DNA of 64,000 nucleotides, taken from the NCBI GenBank assembly GCA_014192065.1, contig BJHH01000004.1:62001-126000 (forward strand), given 5' to 3'. Of this stretch, positions 56,377-64,000 are shown piece after piece. The translations under genes were made by a program, and so were the position numbers. Every line of letters starts with the position of its first letter. Positions within the stretch are counted from its first letter, which is position 1. The notes beneath the pieces were generated by a model. The model was not told where the DNA came from, searched no databases, and saw nothing but the letters and a program-made list of their open reading frames with translations. Source of the DNA: Gemmatimonadota bacterium (lineage in GTDB: Bacteria; Gemmatimonadota; Gemmatimonadetes; Gemmatimonadales; Gemmatimonadaceae).

Positions 56377-57318
56377 TCAACCTGCGTCAACCTGTGCCGG
56401 AGAGACCGACCGGCGTGCCACCCGAATCGCGCCGCGCACTGGCACCACCGACTCGTGGCGGACCAGCGCGCCCGGTACCGAGCTCCTCAGCCTGTGCTCG
56501 ACCAGTTTGCGCAGGAACGAACCGGGCTGCATGAGCCCGCCGGCAACGGCCACCGGAATCGCAGCCCGTTCGTCCACGAACAGGTCGCGGGCAAGGGTAC
56601 GGATGTGCAAGACGAGCTCTTCGGCGGCCATCGCCAGTAGCGAGTTGGCGCGGAGGTCACCTGTCGCGGCGACGGAGACGACGAGCGGTGCGAGCTGTGC
56701 CAGCTGCTGGACGGTCGCTGCCGCCCCCCACGCAACCAGTTCCTCTACCTTGCTGAGCGATAGCGAGTTGAGGAGCGCGCCAACGAGCGCTGTCTCGGGC
56801 TCGCGGCCGTCCGACGAAGCGGTCACGACACTGAGCGCGCGACGTCCGATCCAGGCGCCGCTGCCTTCGTCGCCGCAGAACGGACCCCAGCCGCCGCAGC
56901 GGGCCAGCTTACCGGTGGGACTGCGACCGAAGCAGACCGAGCCCGTGCCCGCGATGAGCAGGATGCCGGCGTCATCACCGAACGCATCCTCCAGCGCGAC
57001 CACAGCATCTGGCAGCACCACGAGTTCGTCGGCGAGATCGCGGTCCTGCATCTCGGCGAAGAAGGCGGCGAACTCGGCGTCGCGACCAACGCCGGCCACG
57101 CCGATGCAGATCGCCGACGGACGCTCGCCCGTCTTGCCCGCTGCTTCAAGCGCCTCGCCAACCAATCGCGCGATGGTGTCCGCCGACTTTGTGATCTGTC
57201 CAGGGCGCACCGCGCTGGGGCTGCCAATGATGCTGGCGAGGTCCGGGCCGTTCACGCCGGCAACCACGACCTGTGTCTTGCTGCCGCCGCCATCTACGCC
57301 TACGACGAGTGTGCTCAC
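56377..57318 (-). CDS. BadF/BadG-type N-acetylglucosamine (or N-acetylmuramic acid) kinase
   Basis: The protein has 313 aa. It has the ASKHA ATPase fold: phosphate-1 motif VGVDGGGSKTQ, catalytic region VLPDAVVALEDAF, phosphate-2 ILLIAGTGSVCFG followed by CGGWGPFCGDEGSGAWIGRRAL, and adenosine motif VAGGLMQPG. This family includes eukaryotic-type GlcNAc kinase and bacterial MurK, which phosphorylates MurNAc and GlcNAc. The location next to a symporter, with NagZ and NamZ nearby, makes an amino-sugar substrate likely. It lies 7 bp after the SSS symporter gene in the same operon. Confidence 0.82.
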   Translation of the reverse strand: MSTLVVGVDGGGSKTQVVVAGVNGPDLASIIGSPSAVRPGQITKSADTIARLVGEALEAAGKTGERPSAICIGVAGVGRDAEFAAFFAEMQDRDLADELVVLPDAVVALEDAFGDDAGILLIAGTGSVCFGRSPTGKLARCGGWGPFCGDEGSGAWIGRRALSVVTASSDGREPETALVGALLNSLSLSKVEELVAWGAAATVQQLAQLAPLVVSVAATGDLRANSLLAMAAEELVLHIRTLARDLFVDERAAIPVAVAGGLMQPGSFLRKLVEHRLRSSVPGALVRHESVVPVRGAIRVARRSVSPAQVDAG

Positions 57319-57325
57319 GAGAGGA

Positions 57326-58843
57326 TTATGTGCTGAGTGGGGGTGAAGAACGTGGTGTCGTCCATGACGAGAGCGTTCCGGTCAAGACGGTCACCGTGGT
57401 GCCGATCAACACGTACCACGGCCATGCGACGGATTCGAATGGATGCAGCAGGGGTGCTAGCACCGGGATCGCGGTCCCAATGATCTTGGCGAACACGACC
57501 AGCGCCATGGCTGTCAGGCCGACGCTCATGCCGAGGATCGCGTCGCGTTGCTGCGCCCGTTTGACGAAGATACCGAGAAAGAACCCGCCGAGCAGTGCGC
57601 CGTACGTGAACGACGCGATCGAAAGGGCGATCACCACTACCGGCGTTCGTCCTTCGGGAAAGAGCAGGGCGCCGAAGGTGAGCACCGTGCCCCAGGCGAG
57701 CGCAAACCGCTTGCCCGCACGCAGCGTCAGCGGGTCGTCCGCACTGCGCTTCGTGAGCGGGAGGTAGATGTCATGCGTGGTGGTTGCGGCCAGCGAATTG
57801 ATGGCGCCTGAATGCGTACTCATCGTGGCGGCTACGATGGCCGCGACGATCAGTCCGAGCAGGCCGTGCGGCATCTGCTCGACGATGAAGGTGGGGAAAA
57901 TCTCGTCCGTGGTGGCAAAGGTCCGGGTTCCGTACGCGGCCCAGAGGCCGAGCCCGACCATCAGGAAGAGGATGAACTGGAAGAAGACGACGATGCCGCT
58001 GCCGATAATCGCGCGCTGGGCATCACGGAGTGAGCGCGCCGAGAGGAGCCGCTGCACGATGAGCTGGTCGGTACCGTGCGACGCCATCGCGAGGAAGGCA
58101 CCGCCGATGAGGCCGGACCAGATGGTGTGCGGATTGCTCAGCGTGAATGAAAAGTCGACGAACTGGAGTTTGCCGGCGGCGCCCGCGGCGTTCAGGATGC
58201 CTCGCCAGCCACCGACCGTCGACATGCCGAGCAGGACGATCGCCGAGGCGCCGCCCAGGAGGTACACGCCGGCCTGGATCAACTCGGTCCACACCACGGC
58301 TCGCATGCCGCCCTTGTAGGTGTAGACGACCGTGAGCAGTCCCAGGACGAGAATCGCGGTGGGCATCAGGTATTCGCGCGGCATCACTGGCCCAATGATC
58401 AGTGCGAGCGGAATCGCGGTCGCGAACACACGTACCGAATCGGCCAGCCCGCGCGTGGCTAGGAAAATGATCGCCGTGAACCGGCGTGTTGCCGTGCCGA
58501 AGCGGGTCTCGAGGAGAGTGTACGCCGTGACGAGGTTGCCCGCGAAATAGCGTGGCAATAACAGGGTGGCCACGACGATTCGGCCGAGGATGTACCCGGC
58601 GCAGACCTGGAGGAATCCGAGATTGCCGGCGTACGCGAGTCCCGGAATCGAGATGAACGTCAGCGCGCTCGTCTCCGACGCCACCACCGAGAACATCACG
58701 GCCCACCACGGAATGTCGCGGTCGGCGACGAAGTACGACGTCGCGTTCTTCTGCTTGCGTCCCACCCAGAGTCCGAACGCTGTGGTGCCGGCGAGGTACG
58801 CCACGACGACCAGCAGGTCGATCACGCCGAATCTATTCGACAC
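57326..58843 (-). CDS. sodium:solute symporter (SSS family)
   Basis: The protein has about 505 aa. GTG 58843 is chosen since GGAGG lies six bases before it; a longer TTG start would swallow that site. About thirteen helices are present. RDIPWWAVMFSVVASETSALTFISIPG and GYILGRIVVATLLLP are SSS hallmarks of the sodium and substrate sites. The second half contains ATMSTHSGAINSLAATTTHDIY. SSS members carry sugars, sialic acid, amino acids or vitamins. The paired amino-sugar kinase suggests uptake of GlcNAc, MurNAc or related sugars, an inference from neighbourhood. Confidence 0.88.
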   Translation of the reverse strand: MSNRFGVIDLLVVVAYLAGTTAFGLWVGRKQKNATSYFVADRDIPWWAVMFSVVASETSALTFISIPGLAYAGNLGFLQVCAGYILGRIVVATLLLPRYFAGNLVTAYTLLETRFGTATRRFTAIIFLATRGLADSVRVFATAIPLALIIGPVMPREYLMPTAILVLGLLTVVYTYKGGMRAVVWTELIQAGVYLLGGASAIVLLGMSTVGGWRGILNAAGAAGKLQFVDFSFTLSNPHTIWSGLIGGAFLAMASHGTDQLIVQRLLSARSLRDAQRAIIGSGIVVFFQFILFLMVGLGLWAAYGTRTFATTDEIFPTFIVEQMPHGLLGLIVAAIVAATMSTHSGAINSLAATTTHDIYLPLTKRSADDPLTLRAGKRFALAWGTVLTFGALLFPEGRTPVVVIALSIASFTYGALLGGFFLGIFVKRAQQRDAILGMSVGLTAMALVVFAKIIGTAIPVLAPLLHPFESVAWPWYVLIGTTVTVLTGTLSSWTTPRSSPPLST

Positions 58844-58945
58844 CGTATGCCTCCATGGCAAAGTGCTCTGGCATCATCCGCGCGGTCGTTTCATGTGCGG
58901 CGGCGACGACCCTCCGCATCCGCTCGGGTGCCGAATGTAGCGATT

Positions 58946-58988
58946 GCCCGCGAGAAGGCCCGCGAGAAGGCCCGCGAGAAGGCCCGCG
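58946..58988. repeat. 12-bp tandem repeat GCCCGCGAGAAG (3.6 copies)
   Basis: Three full copies (58946-58981) and a partial one abut the terminator-like hairpin of erpA and repeat its 3' arm. The surrounding intergenic space is 58844-59073. Confidence 0.92.
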
Positions 58989-59010
58989 CTCCCAGTGGGG
59001 ATCGCGGGCC
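58981..59010 (-). terminator. candidate erpA terminator
   Basis: Perfect 8-pair stem GGCCCGCG (58981-58988) with CGCGGGCC (59003-59010), 14-base loop with further pairing. On the minus strand it lies about 65 bases past the erpA stop and is followed by TTCT. Confidence 0.55.
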
Positions 59011-59073
59011 TGGTCGCCAGCTTCGCGGTCGCTCAGGCGGGGGCCACCTGAAGCCGGCCGTGCCACGGTCAGC

Positions 59074-59430
59074 TCAGGCCGTGAACGAGCTTCCGCAGCC
59101 GCAGCCGCCGGTCGCATTCGGATTCTTGAATGTGAACCCTGAACCCTGCATCGACGTCACGTAGTCGATCGTGATGCCAGCCATGTACTGCATCGAGAAC
59201 GGGTCCACGAATACCTTGTACCCATCCTGTGTGACCACCGTATCGTCGTCTGCCGGCTTGTCTTCGATCAGTAAGCTGTACTTGAAGCCCGAGCATCCAC
59301 CGGGTTGCACGGAAACGCGCAGCCCGCCGACCTCTGGCGAAACCTGCTCGGCGTCCATGAACTTGCGAACTTCAACGGCCGCAGCGGCCGTCATCGTGAC
59401 GGCCAGTTCGGCCTGACTCATTGTGCTCAT
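59074..59430 (-). CDS. erpA: A-type iron-sulfur carrier protein ErpA/IscA
   Basis: The protein has about 118 aa from ATG 59430, with GAGGAA ahead of it. The three cluster-ligating cysteines are in GGCSGFKY and the C-terminal GGCGCGSSF. It passes Fe-S clusters to apoproteins; clients here would include ActB. HesB/IscA/ErpA family members cannot be separated reliably by eye; the name ErpA is the best guess. It is divergent from the membrane protein starting at 59486. Confidence 0.88.
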   Translation of the reverse strand: MSTMSQAELAVTMTAAAAVEVRKFMDAEQVSPEVGGLRVSVQPGGCSGFKYSLLIEDKPADDDTVVTQDGYKVFVDPFSMQYMAGITIDYVTSMQGSGFTFKNPNATGGCGCGSSFTA

Positions 59431-59485
59431 TAGGTTCCTCCACAGAGTTCGCGCGTGGTGCGCGGGCATACCCCATAACTATACC

Positions 59486-60049
59486 GTGGACCGCGACCGT
59501 TCTCAAGGAATTCAGAGCGCCATCGGTTTCGTCGTCCTGGTGGCCCTATGCGCTGGGCTCGGCTATGGCGCGTGGATGGTGCTGACACGCCCCAAGGCCC
59601 CGGACGGTGCGCTGGCGGCTCGGCGTAACTACTCCGGCCCCGACTCGGTGGGATTCGTCGCCGTGGCCGGCGAGGGCGTCGAACTCGAGATCTTGGGACC
59701 CGGCGGTGCCCGCACGGCGACGACGGGCGGCGAAGGACCAGGAAAGATCGTCCGGTCCGAGGCTTCCGTGGACTGCCCTGGGTTTTCGAGTCCCGGCGGT
59801 ACGGAATCCGCCTGTACCGTCAGCATCAACCTGAACACCCCGGGGCCCGGCGACTACACGGTCTTGGCTCGGGCCGCCGAACGCCGCTCGGTGGTGCTCA
59901 ATGTGGGCTGGGCTAGCGCGACGCAAGCGCGGAAGGGGGCGTTCGATGTCCGCGTGCAGGTCGCGGCGCGCGGCGCCACGTCGTTCGGGATCATCGTCAC
60001 ACGCGAAGGTGTGACACAGCGTTCTGAGCCCAAACCGGTCGCACCCTAG
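59486..60049 (+). CDS. unknown single-pass membrane protein
   Basis: The protein has about 187 aa from GTG 59486; GTG 59423 in frame would overlap erpA. Near the N-terminus is one membrane helix (IGFVVLVALCAGLGYGAWMVL), followed by an extracytoplasmic domain. That domain is rich in Gly, Val and Thr, with two cysteines (CPGF and CTVS) in a likely beta-sandwich pattern. I do not recognise a family. It may be an envelope protein; it is convergent with nagZ. Confidence 0.6.
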   Translation: MDRDRSQGIQSAIGFVVLVALCAGLGYGAWMVLTRPKAPDGALAARRNYSGPDSVGFVAVAGEGVELEILGPGGARTATTGGEGPGKIVRSEASVDCPGFSSPGGTESACTVSINLNTPGPGDYTVLARAAERRSVVLNVGWASATQARKGAFDVRVQVAARGATSFGIIVTREGVTQRSEPKPVAP

Positions 60050-60077
60050 ACGTTCGCTTCGATGCGTTCCGTTGTTG

Positions 60078-62954
60078 CTAGCGCTGTAGCGCCGAAAGGC
60101 CCACCACCGCATCGGCCAGCGCCTGGCGCACTCGCGTGATCTTGGTGTTGGCGCGGGTTGGGTTCACACGATTGGTGAGCAGGACGACGAACAGGTCGTT
60201 CGCCGGATCGATCCAGATCGACGTGCCGGTAAAGCCGGTGTGCCCAAAGGCAGGGCGGCGCATCAGGCGGCCCGCGGAATTATTTCCGGTCGGTGTCTCC
60301 CACCCGAGCGCGCGATTGGAGAACGCCGAATCCTGGACTGTCGTGAACTGGCGCACCGTGGCCGCTGAGAATAGGCGCGCGCCGTCGAGCGTGCCTTCGT
60401 TCAGGTACGCGCGCGCCAGCCGCGCCATGTCGACGGCGCAACTGAACAGGCCCGCGTGCGCCGAGACGCCGCCAAGCGCGAATGCATTTTCGTCGTGCAC
60501 TTCGCCGCGCAGATGCCGCTGACGCCATGGGTCCACCTCGGTCGGCGCGATGCGCGCTGAGTCGGCGGCTGGCGGTAGGTAGCGGGTGTGGGTCATCCGG
60601 AGCGGCGCGAACAGATGCGTGGCCGCGTAGACGTCGAGCCGTTCGCCCGTGACCGCGCGCACGACTTCGCCGAGCAGGATCGCACCGAGGTCCGAGTAGA
60701 CCATTCGGATGTTGGGGAGCGTGTCGAGCGGCGTTTCGTAGACGAGACGCATCGCGGCGGCCGTATCGGTCGCCTCCTTGTACACCGGCCGCCACGCCGG
60801 GAGTCCCGACGCATGCGTCAGGAGGTGGCGAATCGTCACCTTGTCCTTGTTCGGTCCGGTCCAGGAACGCAGGTAGCGTTGTACGGGTGCGTCCAGATTC
60901 ACGCGCCCTGATTCGACCAGTTGCATGATGACTGAGGTGAGCGCCACGACTTTCGTGAGCGACGCCATGTCCCAGAGCGTATGGGAGTCCGGAACCGGCG
61001 ACGCGCTCCAGTCGAGGTGGCCGGCGCCGTACTCAGCGAGCACGCCTGCTCGACGTCCGACGATCGCATACGCGCCGGGGAACGCGCTGTCGCGTACTGC
61101 CGCGTCGAGGATCGCGCGCACCGTGTCCTGCAGCGGAGTGGGCGGAGGGGCAGGGGATTCGTCTGCATGGGCTGCATCGTCGCGCCCGGCCGCGAACGGG
61201 CGGGCGAGCCCGTCACCGCGTGTGAAGAATCCTGGCAGTGACACCGGCGCACGTCCAGTGGCCGGACCGGTACCCGCAAGCACCCGCGCGGCCGCCTGTT
61301 CGAGCGCGGGACCTCGGCCGAATGTTGCAAGGTAGATGCCGACTCTTGGCATCTCGCGAAGGATGTATGGATTCCCCTCTGCGACTACAAACACGTCGCG
61401 AACGGTGGAGAGAGAATCCACCCAGCGGGCAAACGCTGGTGCCAGCACGAACCGGCCTTCGCCCTCCACGGTCCGCACCAGTGTGTGCACGACGACGCGT
61501 TCACCCGGCCGTGCGATCGAGTCGAGCTGCGGGCGCGGGGTGGCCGGCGTGACGCGGACCAGTCGTGTTCCGCGGATCGTGAGACGTAACTCGGCCGCAA
61601 AGTCGCGGCCGGCCGTGATGTCCATCTCGCCGGCATAGTTCACAATGACCGTCGGTACGCCAGCGGGCATCGGTACGAGTGCACGCGCGTCACGAATCAC
61701 CGTCACCGCTTGCTGTGCGATTCGCCGCGCAGCGGTGCGATGGGCTGCCGACCCAACGATCACGCGCAGAGAATCGAGCGCGACGAACGGATGCCGCGCC
61801 GCGCCTGTTCGCGCCTTGATTTCCAGAATGCGGCGTACTGAGCTGTCGATCCGAGCCGGCGTGATGACGCCCCGCTCGACGGCGGCGACCACCGCGTCGA
61901 TCGCGCGCTTCGTGTCGGTCGGCATCAGCAGGATGTCGCTGCCCGCCTGCACCGCAAGCACGGAGCTCTGGTCGACATCGTACCCCTTGCCGATGCCCTG
62001 CATGGTCATCGCGTCGGTCACGGTGAGACCCGCGAACCGCAGGGTGTCGCGCAGCAGGCCTGTCATAATCGGCGCGGCGAGCGTTGCTGGCACCGAATCG
62101 TGCGAAATGGCGGGCAGGGCGATGTGCGCGCTCATGACCCCGGCGATCCCGGCGTCAATCACCGCGCGAAATGGCGCGAGCTCGACGGCCGCGAGTCTTG
62201 CCCAGTCGCTCCGCACCACCGGTAGGGCGAGGTGCGAATCGGTGTCGGTGTCGCCGTGGCCGGGGAAATGCTTGGCAGTCGCGGCCGCGCCGGCCGACTG
62301 AAGCCCTCGCACGAAGGCCGCCGAGAAGCGCGCCACCGTCGCCGGGTCCTCACCAAAACTCCGCGTGTTGATCACCGGATTCGCCGGGTTGTTGTTCACG
62401 TCCACGACCGGCGCAAACACGAGATGGATACCGGTCGCCCGTGCCTCACGGCCCGAGATGCGGCCAGCTTCTTCGGCGTTCGCCTCATTGCCCGTCGCCC
62501 CAATGGCCATCGCATTCGGCAGGACTGTCGCGCTTCCGGCGGTGTATTGCGCAGGAGCGAACGGTCCACCCTCGAGGCGTCCGAGCCCCGGCTCCAAATC
62601 GCTGGCGACGAGCAGCGGCACGCGCGCGGCGCGCTGCAACGCATTGACCTTCTCGGCAACCTCGATCGGTGTGCCAAGTGACATCACCACGCCACCGACA
62701 TGATCGTCGGCCACCCAGTGTCTGGCCTCCACAAACGAACTGTCCGTCGTGCTCGTGTAATCGCCGAGCACCCAGACCATCACCATCTGCGCGACCCGGT
62801 CACGTAGCGAAAGTGATGCCAGCGTTTGATCCACCCAGCGCCGGTCGGCACTATTCAGTGGGGCGTTCGGGGCCATCGGTGATGTCACCCCGCGTCCACT
62901 GTTCACGATCGGTGTTCTCACGCACGACATCAGACCTACCACTTGGGCGCACAC
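60078..62954 (-). CDS. nagZ: NagZ-type GH3 beta-N-acetylglucosaminidase fused to a beta-lactamase-like serine hydrolase, lipoprotein
   Basis: The protein has about 958 aa. The first half is GH3: VASDLEPGLGRLEGG, KHFPGHGDTDTDSHLALPVV (the His/Asp dyad of NagZ) and VTDAMTMQGI (nucleophile Asp). The last third is a class C beta-lactamase/esterase-like domain with SLTK (SxxK), YSDLG in the YxN position and HTGFTG in the KTG position. It hydrolyses GlcNAc-MurNAc linkages in peptidoglycan fragments; the second domain's substrate is unknown. LMSC looks like a lipobox. The start is uncertain: GTG 62954 is used, while TTG 63164 would overlap the divergent gene by about 200 bp. Confidence 0.82.
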   Translation of the reverse strand: MCAQVVGLMSCVRTPIVNSGRGVTSPMAPNAPLNSADRRWVDQTLASLSLRDRVAQMVMVWVLGDYTSTTDSSFVEARHWVADDHVGGVVMSLGTPIEVAEKVNALQRAARVPLLVASDLEPGLGRLEGGPFAPAQYTAGSATVLPNAMAIGATGNEANAEEAGRISGREARATGIHLVFAPVVDVNNNPANPVINTRSFGEDPATVARFSAAFVRGLQSAGAAATAKHFPGHGDTDTDSHLALPVVRSDWARLAAVELAPFRAVIDAGIAGVMSAHIALPAISHDSVPATLAAPIMTGLLRDTLRFAGLTVTDAMTMQGIGKGYDVDQSSVLAVQAGSDILLMPTDTKRAIDAVVAAVERGVITPARIDSSVRRILEIKARTGAARHPFVALDSLRVIVGSAAHRTAARRIAQQAVTVIRDARALVPMPAGVPTVIVNYAGEMDITAGRDFAAELRLTIRGTRLVRVTPATPRPQLDSIARPGERVVVHTLVRTVEGEGRFVLAPAFARWVDSLSTVRDVFVVAEGNPYILREMPRVGIYLATFGRGPALEQAAARVLAGTGPATGRAPVSLPGFFTRGDGLARPFAAGRDDAAHADESPAPPPTPLQDTVRAILDAAVRDSAFPGAYAIVGRRAGVLAEYGAGHLDWSASPVPDSHTLWDMASLTKVVALTSVIMQLVESGRVNLDAPVQRYLRSWTGPNKDKVTIRHLLTHASGLPAWRPVYKEATDTAAAMRLVYETPLDTLPNIRMVYSDLGAILLGEVVRAVTGERLDVYAATHLFAPLRMTHTRYLPPAADSARIAPTEVDPWRQRHLRGEVHDENAFALGGVSAHAGLFSCAVDMARLARAYLNEGTLDGARLFSAATVRQFTTVQDSAFSNRALGWETPTGNNSAGRLMRRPAFGHTGFTGTSIWIDPANDLFVVLLTNRVNPTRANTKITRVRQALADAVVGLSALQR

Positions 62955-62963
62955 GATGAACCT

Positions 62964-64000
62964 ATGCAGGCGCGACCGCCGCGACCGCCGAACCAGCGGC
63001 GGCGATCCGGCGGCCGGCGAGTGCTGACCCGCGTTAATGCGGTCGTCTGCGCCGGCCTCTTTGTGGTGGCTGTCGTCGGCTGCGTGCCGGCGGTCGCTCT
63101 GCGAAGCGAGCGTGGCGCGCCCGAACGTCTGCGTTTCGGTGTCAGCGTACTCCTCGACGATCAACTGTCCCTCGTGCGTGGAAGACGTGTTGGACTGGTG
63201 ACGGACGCCGGCGCGCGCGATGAGCGCGGGCGCGGTGTCGAAACGTTGTTTCGCGCAGACCCGCGCGCGCGGTCGGCGCGTGTGGTGGTCGTGGCTGCTT
63301 GGCGCGCCGACGCCGCAGCGAGTGCGACGGCGGGACCGTACGGCGCGGGAACCGTCGCTGACAGCATCCGGCTGACGGGCATCGCCGATGCGATGGATTC
63401 AATCGCCGCCGTGTCCCAGATCGTCGTCGTCGATCTGTCGGACGACGGCGTGCGCACTGGCGCCGCGCCGTGGATCATGCTGGCGGCGTTGCGCGCGGCG
63501 TCGCAGCACCACGTGGCGCTGTTGGTGCTCGATCGGCCGAATCCGCTCACGGGTGAACACTCCGAGGGTCCGGTGGCGGACGCATCGTCTGGGGCATCGG
63601 ACGCATTATATGGGCTGCCGGCGAGGCATGGAATGACGCTGGGCGAAATGGCGCGCTGGTTCAACGCGACTGGTGCGCTCAATACCGCGCTCACCGTGGT
63701 CCCCGTGCGGGGATGGCGACGGTCCGCGTGGCCGGTCGCACGTGGTGTCACGCTCCGCCGCGGTGACGGCAGCGAGAAGTCCCCTGAGCAGATCGCGATG
63801 CTTGGCGCGCTCGCGCCGTTCGCGGCGACGAACCTGCACGTCCAGGCTGGCAAGGGGCGCACACCCATTCGCGTTGGAGCGCCTTGGCTCGATGCGAAGG
63901 CTGTTGCCGGGATCCTGAGCGACCGACTGATGGCCGGTCTGCAGTTCCGCAGCGACCGCGCAGCCTTCGGCGCCGGAGGGGCGATGCCAGCTTTGGTGAT
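62964..64000 (+). CDS. NamZ-like exo-beta-N-acetylmuramidase (DUF1343), partial
   Basis: The frame is open to the end of the window (345 codons visible). ATG 62964 gives MQARPPRP with an Arg-rich head, then a lipoprotein signal with VVGC; GTG 63021 is an alternative start. DUF1343 motifs: LVLDRPNPLTGEHSEGP, YGLPARHGMTLGEMARWFN, LTVVPVRGWRR and RVGAPWLDAKA. NamZ of this family removes terminal MurNAc from peptidoglycan fragments. Its N-terminal half (VGLVTDAG) is more divergent than the rest. It is divergent from nagZ, with start codons within about 10 bp of each other. Confidence 0.78.
   Translation, partial: MQARPPRPPNQRRRSGGRRVLTRVNAVVCAGLFVVAVVGCVPAVALRSERGAPERLRFGVSVLLDDQLSLVRGRRVGLVTDAGARDERGRGVETLFRADPRARSARVVVVAAWRADAAASATAGPYGAGTVADSIRLTGIADAMDSIAAVSQIVVVDLSDDGVRTGAAPWIMLAALRAASQHHVALLVLDRPNPLTGEHSEGPVADASSGASDALYGLPARHGMTLGEMARWFNATGALNTALTVVPVRGWRRSAWPVARGVTLRRGDGSEKSPEQIAMLGALAPFAATNLHVQAGKGRTPIRVGAPWLDAKAVAGILSDRLMAGLQFRSDRAAFGAGGAMPALV

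Follow-up and report, generated by a model that had tools for sequence, protein, structure and literature searches.

In Bacillus subtilis the genes for peptidoglycan recycling are arranged as murQRP-amiE-nagZ-ybbC, where YbbC is NamZ, and uptake takes place through a phosphotransferase system (PTS) (PMC5061867). In the diderm Tannerella forsythia a route for free N-acetylmuramic acid (MurNAc) is formed by MurT, of the sodium symporter superfamily, the PF01869 kinase MurK, and MurQ (PMC5790795, PMC7670621). Here we describe a gene cluster of a Gemmatimonadota bacterium that resembles both systems. It lies at the end of a stretch of 64,000 nucleotides (the window, G000:C4:62001-126000) in a genome of 2.45 Mb (16 contigs, 97.75% complete) whose nearest named relatives are metagenome-assembled genomes (MAGs) of Gemmatimonadaceae and Gemmatimonas. 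The cluster encodes a BadF-type kinase, a symporter of the sodium:solute symporter (SSS) family, a NagZ-AmiE fusion and a NamZ-like lipoprotein, and we read it, with a probability of around 0.7, as the Gemmatimonadaceae version of a salvage of wall amino sugars through digestion outside the cytoplasm, sodium-driven uptake and phosphorylation. Our literature searches, whose coverage was incomplete, found no publication on peptidoglycan recycling in Gemmatimonadota.

As in the Bacillus murQ-murR-murP-amiE-nagZ-ybbC cluster, the predicted exported NagZ, an AmiE-type PF00144 hydrolase and NamZ are clustered, and MurQ would act inside the cell. However, where Bacillus uses a PTS (MurP) for both uptake and phosphorylation, an SSS symporter and a BadF kinase are present here; in addition, NagZ and AmiE are fused, the in-cluster NamZ is degenerate, MurQ is unlinked, and the genome has a separate anmK-murQ-nagZ cluster. 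The MurT-MurK-MurQ system of Tannerella is similar in having a transporter of the sodium symporter superfamily and a PF01869 kinase in one operon, with MurQ completing the route, and also in belonging to a diderm. By contrast, MurQ is encoded here outside the cluster, the kinase has the GGWG pocket of human NAGK and of a dual-specificity kinase, and AnmK is present while AmpG was not found, whereas Tannerella has AmpG and lacks AnmK. The AmpG-NagZ-AnmK-MurQ pathway of E. coli has its counterpart in the murQ-anmK-nagZ cluster located elsewhere in this genome, but AmpG was not found in the genome or its genus, and the cluster in the window is predicted to act outside the cytoplasm.

The NagZ-AmiE fusion, the kinase and the symporter

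The results that follow on gene content, motifs, linkage, motif loss and phylogeny, and the failure to detect AmpG or an above-threshold NagA, were obtained by computation. Domain searches located the four genes listed in the initial annotation of this sequence, the BadF-type kinase, the SSS symporter, a GH3 gene and a divergent DUF1343 gene. The description of the last two as a NagZ diverging from a NamZ holds for the orientation of the pair; the GH3 protein, though, is a fusion of NagZ with a PF00144 domain, and the NamZ is a partial match without catalytic motifs.

The fusion gene (60078..63164, minus strand; PF00933 1.3e-80, PF00144 3.6e-62) encodes a protein of 1028 residues whose C-terminal third is the PF00144 serine-hydrolase domain, of AmiE/PBP4B-like type. 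As criteria for a NagZ we took a GH3 N domain, a KH(F)PGHGDT..DSH motif and the TD.M nucleophile motif, and a motif check found the catalytic motifs of the GH3 half intact (KHFPGHGDTDTDSH and TDAMTMQGI). This half reaches 161 of the 207 bits that the stringent PRK05337 model requires, and its closest relatives in the Protein Data Bank (PDB) are the GH3 N-acetylglucosaminidase 6k5j and, slightly lower, YbbD/NagZ of B. subtilis (3bmx). The PF00144 half keeps its SLTK and YSD motifs, in such a way that a hydrolase with SxxK and YxN-like motifs stands beside the predicted exported NagZ; its best NCBIfam model is PBP4B, also under the cut-off (166 of 385 bits). PBP4B (yfeW) is located within the murQ operon of E. 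coli, and amiE adjoins nagZ in B. subtilis (PMC5061867). In relatives of our genome the NagZ and AmiE parts are either a single fused open reading frame (ORF) or two separate adjacent ones, supporting that both parts may work together. Inspection of the fusion revealed a lipobox-like sequence, LMS|C, at residue 81, which makes a start after the listed TTG codon probable. The AmiE-like amidase that had been expected past position 64000 is thus the domain fused to NagZ, and other genes, described below, follow beyond that point.

The kinase and symporter genes are downstream of the fusion on the same strand, with the symporter gene (57326..58861, minus strand; PF00474 5.9e-40) preceding that of the kinase (56377..57318, minus strand; PF01869 7.1e-35) by a gap of 7 bp. 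The kinase shows the motifs of a PF01869 (ASKHA) protein with the MurK/NagK-type fold (DGGGSKT as the DxGxT-like motif, the catalytic aspartate D104, GTGS and GGWGxxxGDEGS). Its closest PDB relative is the MurNAc/N-acetylglucosamine (GlcNAc) kinase 8zo3 (5e-40), followed by 1zc6, a probable GlcNAc kinase, and, lower, by human NAGK. At the level of sequence the dual kinase 8zo3 has the same pocket motifs, GGWG...GDEG being common to it and to human NAGK. The MurNAc-preferring MurK of Tannerella carries S133-P134-L135 at the place of this NAGK-type pocket motif (PMC10465942). On these grounds the predicted substrate is GlcNAc, with MurNAc as a possible one, a choice that sequence alone cannot decide. 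The symporter scored 216 bits against the TIGR00813 cut-off of 184, which places it in the SSS family, and its closest PDB relative is 5nv9 (3e-42), which we take to be the sialic-acid symporter SiaT. It is a predicted importer of GlcNAc and/or MurNAc.

Between the symporter and the fusion lies a gene for an A-type iron-sulphur carrier (HesB/ErpA-like; 59074..59469, minus strand; PF01521 7.9e-23), which probably does not take part in the salvage pathway although it is a constant neighbour. The same interval includes an ORF at 59423-60049 that matches no Pfam family and has a single hydrophobic stretch, at its N-terminus; a similarly placed ORF was seen in another locus (L068:9403-9969).

Conservation of the neighbourhood and the rest of the pathway

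The linkage survey covered 48 loci, distributed over three families of the order, 43 of them with enough flanking sequence. The kinase gene adjoins an SSS symporter gene in 45/48 loci, and in 39/43 the same strand encodes NagZ and/or AmiE at a distance of no more than 10 kb. A divergent NamZ was detected in 31/43, 28 of which also have NagZ/AmiE, and the HesB gene is present in 47/48. This arrangement, recurring in 43-48 loci of three families, is far beyond chance, and the conserved peptidoglycan-sugar neighbourhood that had been proposed from the window was thus borne out by the linkage check. Past the end of the window the NamZ-like gene is followed by a CDP-alcohol phosphatidyltransferase gene and an inositol-phosphate-synthase-like gene, the latter named from sequence only. 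These two genes (window 64075-66311, L003:9075-11311), the first of them phosphatidylinositol-phosphate-synthase-like, are constant beside the cluster across the order.

Other genes at the locus vary among relatives. A NagB/PIG-L fusion (TIGR00502 nagB over the cut-off, PRK02122 888 bits) is found at the cluster locus in 17 relatives, and in many a second SSS symporter gene accompanies the AmiE or NagZ gene. In our genome the NagB/PIG-L gene is outside the cluster, at C1:129898-131739 (L149:7895-9946), with 77% identity to the in-cluster form. Outside the phylum, kinases of the same family are encoded within 2 kb of MurQ in 23/54 loci, and NamZ is also close in four of these 23, one from Tumebacillus and three from Chloroflexota-type MAGs, Anaerolineae included.

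MurQ scored 369 bits in this genome against a cut-off of 302, and exceeded it in 59/61 genomes. Its gene lies together with those of AnmK and an unfused NagZ-like GH3 protein at G000:C1:437652-440737, in the interval L117:7652-11244 (C1:437652-441244), and the adjacency of MurQ and AnmK is kept across the order. The unfused GH3 protein would be cytoplasmic, since it has no obvious signal. A search for AmpG (TIGR00901) at the cut-off of its family model, and another with the AmpG of a relative, found it neither in this genome nor in any of its 17 congeners. Six relatives do carry a gene of the AmpG family, located at most about 6 kb from the same murQ-anmK-nagZ cluster, so that AmpG was either lost or never gained in this genus. 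None of the 61 genomes had a NagA over the cut-off, with only weak matches, none near it, and for this reason the PIG-L domain is a candidate GlcNAc 6-phosphate deacetylase.

The following route can be proposed from these data; its substrates and direction, the export and the coupling ion are all inferred. Acting outside the cytoplasm, the NagZ-AmiE lipoprotein would strip terminal GlcNAc and stem peptides off wall fragments, and an exo-muramidase would free MurNAc. As the NamZ copy of the cluster lacks its active site, the active NamZ of this species would be a paralogue on contig C2 (L004:9209-10417). The SSS symporter would then import free GlcNAc and/or MurNAc with sodium, the BadF kinase would convert the imported sugars to their 6-phosphates, MurQ, encoded elsewhere, would turn MurNAc 6-phosphate into GlcNAc 6-phosphate, and the NagB/PIG-L fusion would carry the latter to fructose 6-phosphate.

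The NamZ-like protein of the cluster

The NamZ-like gene (62943..64000 within the window, plus strand) was read past position 64000, as had been suggested, and it ends at 64244, encoding 433 residues (L003:7943-9244). Both domains of the family are present, but their matches are weak and partial, with NamZ_N (PF07075) limited to positions 80-184 (94 bits) and NamZ_C (PF20732) reaching 40 bits. The paralogue on the other contig gives a full-length match (246 and 135 bits) and has the PEHG and SxGRG motifs. All 37 intact copies have the E, H and G of PEHG, and SxGRG is near-invariant in them; the glutamate of PEHG is presumably the catalytic residue. In the window copy, ADAA and HVQAG are found where these motifs are expected. 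This protein evolves fast and is probably a dead enzyme, or pseudo-enzyme, and not a credible exo-muramidase, so the role of exo-enzyme that the initial annotation gave to it is not supported.

A tree of 77 NamZ copies grouped the window copy with four other motif-less copies (support 0.998). This clade of five is nested in the family's own clade of in-cluster NamZ (0.996) and apart from a second type (22 copies, support 0.95), and we conclude from it that the enzyme decayed in place. The ratios of nonsynonymous to synonymous substitution rates (dN/dS), approximate because dS is high and near saturation for most pairs, were 0.23-0.41 for the window-type NamZ (seven pairs among five Gemmatimonas copies), 0.09-0.17 for intact NamZ, and 0.07-0.12 for the kinase, the symporter and the NagZ-AmiE fusion (two nearest pairs). 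All the motif-less copies compared lack in-frame stops, and their dN/dS (0.16-0.41) is well under 1, pointing to a constraint that is relaxed yet still present. Two other views of this gene were discarded. A fast-evolving active enzyme is ruled out by the loss of both motifs here and in four Gemmatimonas relatives while intact copies keep them, and a dead pseudogene by the open frames of the compared motif-less copies and their dN/dS.

A structure model of the part of NamZ that lies in the window (predicted local distance difference test, pLDDT, 67) is confident in the core only; its confidence is low near the former active site, and it does not serve to judge the loops there. Its strong fold matches are all DUF1343 structures, 4k05 (E 1e-11) and 4jja.

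Within the family of the window, 18 genomes have an intact NamZ of the in-cluster type, and 7/18 of these also have the second type. In another 16 genomes the in-cluster NamZ is degenerate or absent; the second type is present in 15/16, and the sixteenth has another intact copy. By this count, which is our own tally, with very incomplete genomes excluded and shared ancestry uncorrected, the decay of NamZ appears to accompany the possession of a spare copy. A NamZ match over the cut-off was found in 51/51 genomes at least 90% complete.

A second set of in-cluster NamZ copies (L084, L163 and L174, for example in genome G029) has lost PEHG and kept SxGRG, with a dN/dS of about 0.2, and is possibly a separate case of retained non-catalytic NamZ. 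The gene of the C2 paralogue overlaps one for a phosphodiester glycosidase (PF09992), a pair kept in 3/3 relatives checked, and genes for a D-aminopeptidase (M55) and an M28 peptidase are close by (L004:2654-10417).

As to why a motif-less NamZ is retained, we tentatively consider, while holding it rather doubtful, that it is no dying gene but would encode a non-catalytic lipoprotein with the NamZ fold that binds wall fragments (as a sensor, scaffold or delivery partner for NagZ-AmiE) after the second NamZ took over catalysis, and that in the same lineage SSS symporters would stand in for the missing AmpG and import muramic sugars in free form, anhydro-MurNAc among them.

Alternative readings and biological meaning

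Several observations weigh against a dedicated wall-sugar salvage. With 103 of 370 bits, the kinase stays far under the cut-off of NagK_SO3507; the NamZ of the cluster is degenerate, NagB and MurQ are encoded elsewhere in this genome, and the separate murQ-anmK-nagZ cluster could carry out recycling without the genes of the window. Moreover, the order conserves the HesB, CDP-alcohol transferase and inositol-phosphate-synthase-like genes equally as neighbours, and some of the linkage is therefore plain synteny. Were it nothing else, the sugar genes would be neighbours of housekeeping loci for an iron-sulphur carrier and phosphatidylinositol synthesis, with the kinase and symporter unrelated to the wall enzymes, and the constancy of those housekeeping genes, which equals that of the sugar genes, speaks for such an explanation. 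We regard it as highly improbable, because the neighbours observed for the kinase outside the phylum include MurQ, NamZ, AmiE and GH3 genes but no HesB or CDP-alcohol transferase gene, and because the gains and losses within the phylum (NagB/PIG-L, an additional symporter, NagZ and AmiE as one fusion or as two proteins) stay within one pathway.

It is less far-fetched, though still unlikely, that the kinase and symporter serve a general catabolism of GlcNAc from chitin or other environmental amino sugars, the wall enzymes being neighbours that supply GlcNAc only and MurNAc being handled solely by the murQ-anmK-nagZ cluster. The partner gene in relatives is indeed that of NagB/PIG-L (GlcNAc 6-phosphate to fructose 6-phosphate) and not MurQ, which is absent from the 2 kb around the kinase gene in all of 26 Gemmatimonadota loci, and the kinase pocket is of NAGK type, unlike the S133-P134-L135 that gives MurNAc specificity to Tannerella MurK (PMC10465942). 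However, kinases of the same family are next to MurQ in the 23/54 loci outside the phylum, and the nearest relative of known structure, 8zo3, is named as a kinase of both MurNAc and GlcNAc. In addition, all genomes with a completeness of at least 90% keep an exo-muramidase expected to free MurNAc, and a kinase is required for this free sugar because the substrate of AnmK is the anhydro form.

We therefore favour the salvage of wall amino sugars. Hydrolysis, uptake and phosphorylation, the sequence of events that had first been envisaged, agree with the 8zo3 relative of the kinase, the 5nv9 relative of the symporter and the presence of MurQ elsewhere, but they would not form the sole recycling route, given the murQ-anmK-nagZ cluster. 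The independence from AmpG that had been suggested fits its non-detection in the genome and the genus. A route for free MurNAc made up of a sodium symporter, a kinase and MurQ has already been published for another diderm, T. forsythia (PMC5790795, PMC7670621). In our best reading the kind of pathway is known, and what is new is the combination of a Bacillus-type AmiE-NagZ-NamZ set with a Tannerella MurT-MurK-like pair, together with the NagZ-AmiE fusion, the NagB/PIG-L partner and the decay of NamZ in place.

The locus poses the question of how muramic sugars enter the cell in a genus with AnmK and MurQ and no detectable AmpG, and offers a clear example in nature of the in-place decay of an enzyme when a paralogue is present. 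For the phylum, the cluster predicts a complete salvage route outside the cytoplasm, in which digestion in the style of Gram-positive bacteria would be coupled to uptake by a sodium symporter and a kinase of the Tannerella type.

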